64,000 nucleotides of DNA from Odontocerum albicorne. Taxonomy: Eukaryota > Arthropoda > Insecta > Trichoptera > Odontoceridae. Made by a program: the position numbers and the translations under genes. The stretch spans positions 13,491,112 to 13,555,111 of the forward strand of contig OX463854.1 in assembly GCA_949825065.1 (NCBI GenBank), read 5' to 3'. Below the pieces are notes generated by a model. It had not been told where the DNA came from. It made no database searches and worked only from the letters and a program-made list of their open reading frames with translations. This document shows positions 41,890 through 42,611 of this stretch, piece after piece. Position 1 is the first letter of the stretch. Every line of letters starts with the position of its first letter.

Positions 41890-42339
41890 TAGACTGGTTT
41901 TCCGTTTCCCTTTGTCGAATTTAAAGGTACATGGATAACTGCAGCGTGCGGCGTTTTTTCCCGAATCTGCATTGTAATGCAGATTGGTGATGCGGAATAG
42001 GGGGGGTGGGCGGGGTCGTGTCGTGCACTTCTGTTTGTCTGTAGTACGTTGGTCGTCGATGCTCGATTATGTAGGTCAAGTTGCAGATGGCGTCCGACGT
42101 GGAGGGTTGGTCTGCAGGTGCTTGAGGATGGCGGAGTCTGCGATGCTCGTGGTTGTAGCCATGCTGGTGGTTGTAGCGATGCTCGTGGTTGTAGCGATGC
42201 TCGTGTGTTCCAGCATCTTGTCGGCCATCAGTGCGAGTTCGTCGAGGGAGGCAGTCTTGGAGATCGTATGGCTGATCGCCAGGACTGACCTCACATGGGC
42301 TGGCATCAAATTCGTCCACATCAGATGTAGTGTTGTATC
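41890..42339 (-). pseudogene. Gypsy-type gag remnant
   Basis: The frame opens abruptly with [20 protein letters not shown] (42339 downward), then ISKTASLDELALMADKMLEH, which is the conserved capsid C-terminal pattern of insect Gypsy gag proteins (L.R.L..QRLPA.VR.VLA....SL..LA..ADK). It is followed by a six-residue SIATTT-type repeat encoded by 18-bp units (42141-42208) and a stop at 42076. After frameshifts a nucleocapsid-like RFGK/NAARCSYPC segment appears (about 41965-41925). The N-terminal half of gag is absent, replaced by H2B sequence in a different frame. Not functional. Confidence 0.8.
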
Positions 42340-42341
42340 TG

Positions 42342-42557
42342 GGTGACGGCCTTGGTGCCCTTGCTGACGGCGTGCTTGGTCAACTCACCAGGGAGTAGGA
42401 GACTGACGGCGGTCTGGATCTCCCTGCTGGTGATGGTGCTTTTCTTGTTGTAGTGGGCGAGGCGGGAGGCGGCGATGCACTAGAAGATATCGTTGACGAA
42501 ACTGTTCATGATGCTCATCGCCTTGCTGCTGATGCCGGTGTCGAGTTGCACCTGTAC
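42342..42557 (-). pseudogene. histone H2B fragment captured in the LTR element
   Basis: One minus frame reads [23 protein letters not shown], an in-frame [42 protein letters not shown] and KGTKAVT. This is unmistakably core histone H2B from the end of helix 1 through helices 2 and 3 into the C-terminal helix. Compared with ordinary H2B the sequence after DIF has TAG for the Glu codon, has lost six bases in the IAAEASR region, and carries a few substitutions. The N-terminal tail is missing. Homology stops at VT (42342), and gag homology starts at 42339 in another frame, so the join is within about three bases. H2B is in the sense orientation of the retroelement. GC-rich codons match a replication-dependent histone gene origin (inference). 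Confidence 0.93.
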
Positions 42558-42611
42558 GGTGTTTATCGAGTTGGCCACATCCGTTATAGTCGAAATCTGC
42601 GTTCAATTTGC

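Follow-up and report, generated by a model that had tools for sequence, protein, structure and literature searches.

A fragment of histone H2B, by its sequence the host's own, was captured once by an LTR retrotransposon in the Odontocerum albicorne genome, where it took the place of the first part of gag, and this one capture founded a family without pol that has grown, over a long period, to hundreds of copies. One of these copies lies on the minus strand of the window, the whole 64,000-nucleotide stretch of DNA that was analysed. The original prediction of a captured host sequence was confirmed, but the capture proved to be no one-off: a whole family descends from it, and its junction occurs at 357 places.

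Structure of the H2B-bearing element in the window

The whole LTR element spans 41383-43076 on the minus strand and is flanked by CCTT duplications. Its parts are listed below, with H2B residues numbered on a 123-residue query in which Met is 1.

41379..41382, minus strand: target site duplication CCTT, 3' side of the element (from the sequence)
41383..41820, minus strand: 3' LTR, 438 bp (96% identity to the other LTR in gap-free columns)
41821..41833, minus strand: polypurine-tract-like stretch AGAAGGGGAACAC, adjoining the 3' LTR (putative function)
41905..42343, minus strand: gag remainder (3' part) of the DUF7041 / PF23055 type; its second half contains two stops (from the matches of relatives)
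42342..42343, minus strand: H2B-gag junction, 2-nt overlap CC (from alignments to H2B-less gag copies)
42342..42554, minus strand: captured H2B fragment, residues 45-117, with one TAG and 6 bp lost
42555..42609, minus strand: leader, like the 5'UTR immediately ahead of the L083 gag start (from alignment to this H2B-less copy)
42610..42625, minus strand: primer-binding-site-like TGGTGACTCCGAACGC, 2 nt after the 5' LTR (from the sequence)
42628..43076, minus strand: 5' LTR, 449 bp (from the LTR alignment)
43077..43080, minus strand: target site duplication CCTT, 5' side (from the sequence)

Read 5' to 3', the order is LTR, primer-site-like stretch, short leader, H2B, 3' gag, polypurine-like stretch and LTR. 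The LTR pair was identical in 431 of 447 gap-free aligned columns, a few of which lie beyond the LTR ends; two LTRs and a short target duplication mark an LTR retrotransposon, and the PF23055 relatives of its gag place that gag in an LTR-retrotransposon superfamily. We assume that the element is Ty3/Gypsy rather than of another LTR group. The primer-site-like stretch begins with TGG and agrees at only 12 of 17 positions with what we take to be the 3' end of tRNA-Trp, too few to name the primer. The 807-bp internal region consists of leader, H2B and gag with no pol of its own, so the element is non-autonomous. TRIMs have very short LTRs and no coding remnant; the element, with LTRs of 438-449 bp and a gag remnant, is not one of them. 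Rfam and tRNA scans of the window gave no lead on the element, nor did following it up against viral contigs.

A tblastn search with a canonical H2B fragment matched frame -3 at 42554-42339, with 63 of 74 columns identical (E 5.8e-37, 122 bits), and the best match among 500 mononucleotide shuffles of the internal region reached 21 bits. H2B chains in the PDB matched the block at about 1e-32, and Pfam PF00125 matched it at 3.4e-9. The H2B match is far beyond chance, and with both LTRs and the CCTT duplications found, the predicted H2B sequence inside an LTR element was borne out. The block had been placed at 42320..42560; H2B is real there but starts at 42554, not 42560, and it comprises 213 nt (42554-42342). 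G or C occupies the third position in 62 of its 70 codons, in a window that is 68% A+T by base counts. Its sequence runs across the histone fold, as in core histone H2B. With residues 45-117 only and a stop in the window copy, it is not a full-length open H2B gene; it lacks the N-tail and, presumably, most of helix 1.

H2B identity ends at 42342 and gag identity begins at 42343, with a 2-nt overlap; the near-precise junction that had been proposed held to within 2 bp, but with gag beginning at 42343 rather than 42339. The in-frame TAG and the 6-bp loss were both present in the window copy as described. None of the other blocks, 52 in all, shares the TAG, and the 6-bp loss recurred in 5 of 29 other first-read loci. 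Given the TAG, the out-of-frame joint and the lack of a start codon, no fusion protein would come from the window copy, in agreement with the original prediction.

The gag remainder was identified via P0002, the sole protein with E <= 1 among 2055 candidates. A search with P0002 yielded 191 relatives with PF23055, of which the 120 best were listed and fetched; all 120 matched the window gag (best E 6e-22), which confirms the predicted gag remainder. We take the 26 species-named rows among the 120 listed, counted by eye, to be moths or butterflies. H2B was absent from all 120 fetched gag relatives, one row reaching E 5.5. The gag fragment, searched at its own length against the protein database, gave no lead.

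The window holds several other repeats. A tandem array at 37004-37816 contains four copies of a 203-bp unit with 99% matches, and another at 4281-4883 has a 59-bp unit, with periods of 124 and 183 bp also called. A near-palindromic repeat of about 200 bp occurs three times (10610-10806, 20014-20220 and 39343-39547), is 78-93% identical to its own reverse complement and perhaps represents a fold-back element family. GTTAG is repeated 16 times at 2374-2453, inside the contig, a unit that we take to resemble the insect telomere repeat. Reverse transcriptase fragments at 11855-12262 and 24573-25064 (PF00078, E 5.7e-14 and 2.2e-5, the second below the Pfam cut-off) are remains of other retroelements.

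Copies of the element and its two parents

The H2B-gag junction was searched in the 1.287 Gb genome as a 31-nt pattern with up to 3 mismatches and was found at 357 places, 172 forward and 185 reverse; the reversed control pattern was found at 0. A search with the element DNA gave at least 46 places (40 scored of 4698 first-look candidates). H2B and gag were both present in 30 of 30 first-read loci, two of which (L027 and L028) overlap, and the junctions were identical in nearly all of them; other copies with the same junction, the check proposed in the original prediction, are therefore abundant. The frame offset from H2B to gag was alike in 31 of 32 blocks counted (two counted twice), L009 being the one that differs. 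The predicted frame mismatch is thus confirmed, and because it is so widely held the out-of-frame joint must be old.

In 20 of the 30 loci a repeat pair with a mismatch distance of 0.012-0.047, taken as LTRs by position, brackets H2B, indicating that the block has moved with the element many times. Of the other 10 loci, three (L026-L028) gave repeat pairs that were not counted and seven gave none; L025, L029 and L030 had no match to the window LTR. The spans between the repeat pairs were 719-985 bp in the 20 loci; 13 later loci, whose pairs reached at least 97.7% but were in some cases partial, had spans of 756-1947 bp. All these spans are short for a pol. L027 and L028 (G000 C10) are tandem H2B-bearing copies, 98.9% alike over 1585 bp and perhaps sharing an LTR.

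Once loci that shared both the block and the letters downstream of it had been merged, the blocks read amounted to 52 different ones; counts of intact frames among them are biased because the blocks were chosen by similarity. Diversity among 29 loci (L028 left out) was 0.066 in H2B and 0.069 in the first part of gag; the rest of gag had 0.095, the leader 0.121 and the LTRs 0.15-0.16. The values of H2B and of the gag stretch next to it are similar and below those of their flanks, and sampling by similarity is the sole explanation that we offer. On a tree rooted on host H2B (L026, L068 and L069 left out, besides L020 and L039), the copies form a ladder leading away from the host.

Both parents of the hybrid have relatives in the same genome. 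At least 9 full-length H2B genes were found, one of them with a TAG (150 of 406 candidates scored), and the full-length query also recovered element-type blocks covering about residues 44-118. The host H2B genes match in one uninterrupted frame without an intron and are clustered, four of them within 58 kb on C17. When the copies were aligned to the species' own H2B genes, as had been suggested, the H2B of L040 differed from the nearest intact host gene by only 4 silent changes and the junction codon, and the most derived blocks carried 20-23 replacement and 8-11 silent changes (the frameshifted L020 apart). Judged from these alignments, the donor is the host's own H2B. L039 (G000 C20), a full-length H2B match at 84% identity with one TAG, is an H2B pseudogene apart from the element type.

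L040 (G000 C12) has a repeat pair of 99.2%, the mark of a young insertion, yet its H2B is near that of the host, and equally young ATG-bearing copies are far diverged from host H2B. This combination speaks against a simple clock; replication cycles differing between lineages would produce it, and re-copying of L040 from host H2B is possible. The divergence of the window copy alone (9 changes against 3.1 expected, P 0.005 and 0.012) was considered as a sign that the capture predated the insertion, but P rose to 0.07-0.10 without the edge codons; this argument was dropped, and the multi-copy result takes its place.

The other parent is represented by L081, L082 and L083, gag copies without H2B in the stretch read. 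Their matches to L040 set in exactly at the junction, with 92%, 78% and 85% identity, respectively; L081 and L083, which match from CCCAGAT on, agree with the window copy at 87% and 81%. On the upstream side, the leader of L040 matched L083 at 77% over 43 nt (E 4e-5) and that of the window copy at 70% (E 0.013), ending at the junction, and the gag start codon of L083 lies 1 nt past the end of this match. This upstream match is a short one, and neither L081 nor L082 matched the leader. The two joints are 384 nt apart in L083, which is slightly shorter than P0002 there, indicating that about 128 gag codons were replaced. The original prediction had placed H2B between the primer site and gag, which is the correct position; however, the sequence upstream of it is like a gag 5'UTR, so H2B stands in place of gag sequence and was not merely inserted. 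The leader was also considered as a gag N-terminus in frame with H2B and rejected: an HMM of the N-termini of 110 relatives had no match, its dN/dS was 0.98, and it precedes the L083 gag start codon.

Route of capture and spread

In our account, an element whose gag was of the DUF7041 type lost gag codons 1 to about 128 and received an internal stretch of host H2B coding sequence in their stead. Most likely, reverse transcriptase switched template twice, from element RNA to H2B mRNA and back, at overlaps of 1-2 nt. The resulting hybrid lacks most of gag and all of pol and has kept both LTRs, for which reason we infer that it was copied in trans by the proteins of intact relatives. Amplification over a long period, from a source that kept changing, brought it to hundreds of copies. 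H2B is a passenger in the majority of the copies read, with the ancestral out-of-frame joint, no start codon and near-neutral change; late in the ladder, one lineage probably gained the gag-like start ATG-TCA-AAA in frame with H2B. We regard this account as a whole, from capture and replacement through trans copying and amplification to the late start codon, as highly probable. The capture itself, its single origin, the replacement of gag sequence, the high copy number and the frame states follow directly from the sequences.

Possible sources of such proteins were found in the genome, which has many DUF7041-type gag frames, many of 303-346 residues; at least 4 gag matches on C27 lie within 1335-residue open frames (136 of 756 candidates having been scored in both cases). 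In frame downstream of one of the latter, a 1500-base piece encodes reverse transcriptase followed by RNase H (PF00078 7e-24, PF17919 2e-29). Proteins able to move the pol-less H2B element in trans may therefore exist in this genome, and presumably gag-pol relatives moved the family. The four gag matches in 1335-residue frames lie at G000 C27:29.96-30.17 Mb, within about 210 kb.

Template switching onto mRNA is the likeliest route of capture. The H2B piece could also have entered as DNA, by illegitimate or homologous exchange of a gag copy with a histone gene, the hybrid being retrocopied afterwards. A DNA donor and an RNA donor, such as the histone transcript without poly(A) of the original prediction, look alike here, because the H2B genes have no introns and the fragment, internal to the coding sequence, carries nothing that would distinguish them; the clustering of the uninterrupted host genes on C17 and joints sharing only 1-2 nt would suit an exchange of DNA as well. 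However, strand transfer would give just such a pattern, with two clean switches, an unchanged strand and a return to the same gag some 128 codons further on, and LTR elements are described, in excerpts of PMC5408686, as switching template to host sequence during reverse transcription. A DNA donor is accordingly an unlikely, if serious, alternative to an RNA donor. That the same element family captured H2B several times independently might be suggested by L040, so close to host H2B though its insertion is young; this is very improbable in view of the end points and frame offset common to 31 of the 32 blocks counted and of the single ladder on the tree. The original prediction had allowed for an assembly join. 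With the junction at 357 places and the reversed control at 0, the chance of such a join, or of an H2B pseudogene lying between two unrelated LTRs, is practically negligible; moreover, the primer-site-like and polypurine-like stretches adjoin the LTRs, and the CCTT duplications lie outside them.

Coding potential of the H2B block and likeness to known systems

Most copies read have no start codon. An in-frame upstream ATG was present in 13 of 51 blocks (L020, which is frameshifted, and L039, an H2B gene with a stop, left out), and in 11 of them it stands 9 nt upstream of H2B, in a common context like the L083 gag start. These 11 blocks have open H2B-derived frames of 81-82 residues; all came from 20 stretches picked among the lower-scoring rows of the full-length H2B search, so 11 of 51 is no estimate of frequency. 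The view that the block has no coding role, correct for the window copy, may not extend to this late subfamily with its in-frame ATG and open frame. Two of the frames, tested against Pfam, still scored as Histone (E 1e-8), and 28 of 150 listed rows, counted by eye, carried a 100-residue open frame, which 6 of the 11 ATG-bearing blocks also have. Seven of the 11 copies had repeat pairs of 97.8-100% (two partial), two had pairs of 81.9 and 89.9%, and two had none, indicating that the subfamily consists mostly of young insertions. On the tree the ATG-bearing copies lie near the tip of the ladder, with the ATG-less L065 among them and a group support of 0.52, an arrangement from which we infer that the ATG was gained late.

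Selection on the block was assessed from pairwise dN/dS and from counts by mutation class; L020 and L028 were left out of the former and of the first class counts, L020 and L039 out of the later ones, and codons where host genes differ were omitted from the later counts over all copies. Pairwise dN/dS was 0.55 in H2B, 0.98 in the leader, and 0.85 and 1.14 in the shifted H2B frames; for gag it says little, being 0.58 in its own frame and 0.57 in a shifted one. The value of 0.55 was rejected as a sign of selection on H2B, since class counts, with transitions at 0.69-0.77 and transversions at 1.2-2.0, weakened it. In the later counts over all copies, C>T/G>A changes were seen at 31 of 64 silent and 39 of 61 replacement chances (P 0.10), transversions at 12 of 65 and 41 of 327 (P 0.23), and other transitions at 1 of 2 and 10 of 72, a class whose silent side is too small. 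No deficit is seen in either of the two classes that offer enough silent chances, which weakens the selection reading further. Replacements numbered 90 against 126 expected (0.71) with all classes pooled and 24 against 48 (0.50) among changes in 5 or more copies; both ratios depend on the class with only two silent chances. Across copies, 2 stops were seen and 2.8 expected. The H2B block appears near-neutral across copies, with weak constraint possible.

The H2B piece might nevertheless have been retained for a function, either at the RNA level or, in the ATG-bearing subfamily, as a small protein with a histone fold. The ATG 9 nt before H2B and the open frame of 81-82 residues in 11 of 51 blocks, the two frames that score as Histone and the 28 of 150 rows with the 100-residue frame would fit this, and in ATG-bearing copies replacement transversions were scarce (8 of 364 against 7 of 67 silent, P 0.004, uncorrected and one of several tests). 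However, C>T/G>A changes in the same copies showed no deficit (6 of 59 replacement against 4 of 61 silent, P 0.53), nor did the ATG-less copies (P 0.67 and 1.0). In addition, the 150 rows listed of 406 were cut by H2B protein score at 105.5 bits, so close to the 106-110 bits of the ATG-bearing copies that more changed copies would be missing from the list. The scarce replacement transversions hint at selection and the C>T class does not, and we consider a working H2B piece quite unlikely compared with a passenger. A more specific form, which we put forward as a doubtful speculation, is that a second recombination set a gag-type start in frame and that the late subfamily encodes a histone-fold protein aiding the spread of the element, e.g., by pairing with H2A or by tethering complexes to chromatin; alternatively, small RNAs from the family may touch host H2B mRNA. 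Excerpts of PMC6411831 describe histone H4 mRNA feeding the ping-pong piRNA pathway in Aedes cells.

With donor genes, H2B-less relatives and hundreds of descendants in one genome, capture, drift and a later start codon can be traced step by step. The frequency with which a retrotransposon makes a new reading frame out of host sequence can thus be tested directly, as can an effect of these hundreds of sense-strand histone pieces on the supply of histones by way of small RNAs. None of the titles and abstract starts listed from open-licence papers mentions a captured histone.

The window gag belongs with the DUF7041 (PF23055) gag proteins, but here the first about 128 gag codons and all of pol are gone. 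A closely related process is LTR-mediated retroposition (Tan et al. 2016, as presented in excerpts of PMC5408686 and PMC8232201), in which partial host sequence is placed between LTR ends and joined to element sequence by template switching, as is probable here; the microhomology at the switch points would be 1 nt and 2 nt, judged from the present-day L083. Unlike the metazoan cases in those excerpts, one capture founded hundreds of copies, and the donor was a core histone. Bs1 of maize, as described in parts of PMC4717578 and PMC5408686, is likewise an LTR element with host gene pieces, but from a plant and with other genes. The gene-carrying TRIMs of soybean and Medicago, according to excerpts of PMC4717578, are 1.17-1.45 kb long and contain host gene fragments, nearly all in at least 2 copies; the likeness is that of a small LTR element with a host gene fragment. 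They amount to 30 elements in seven subfamilies in the same excerpts, whereas in the present family a single junction recurs at 357 places and part of gag is kept.
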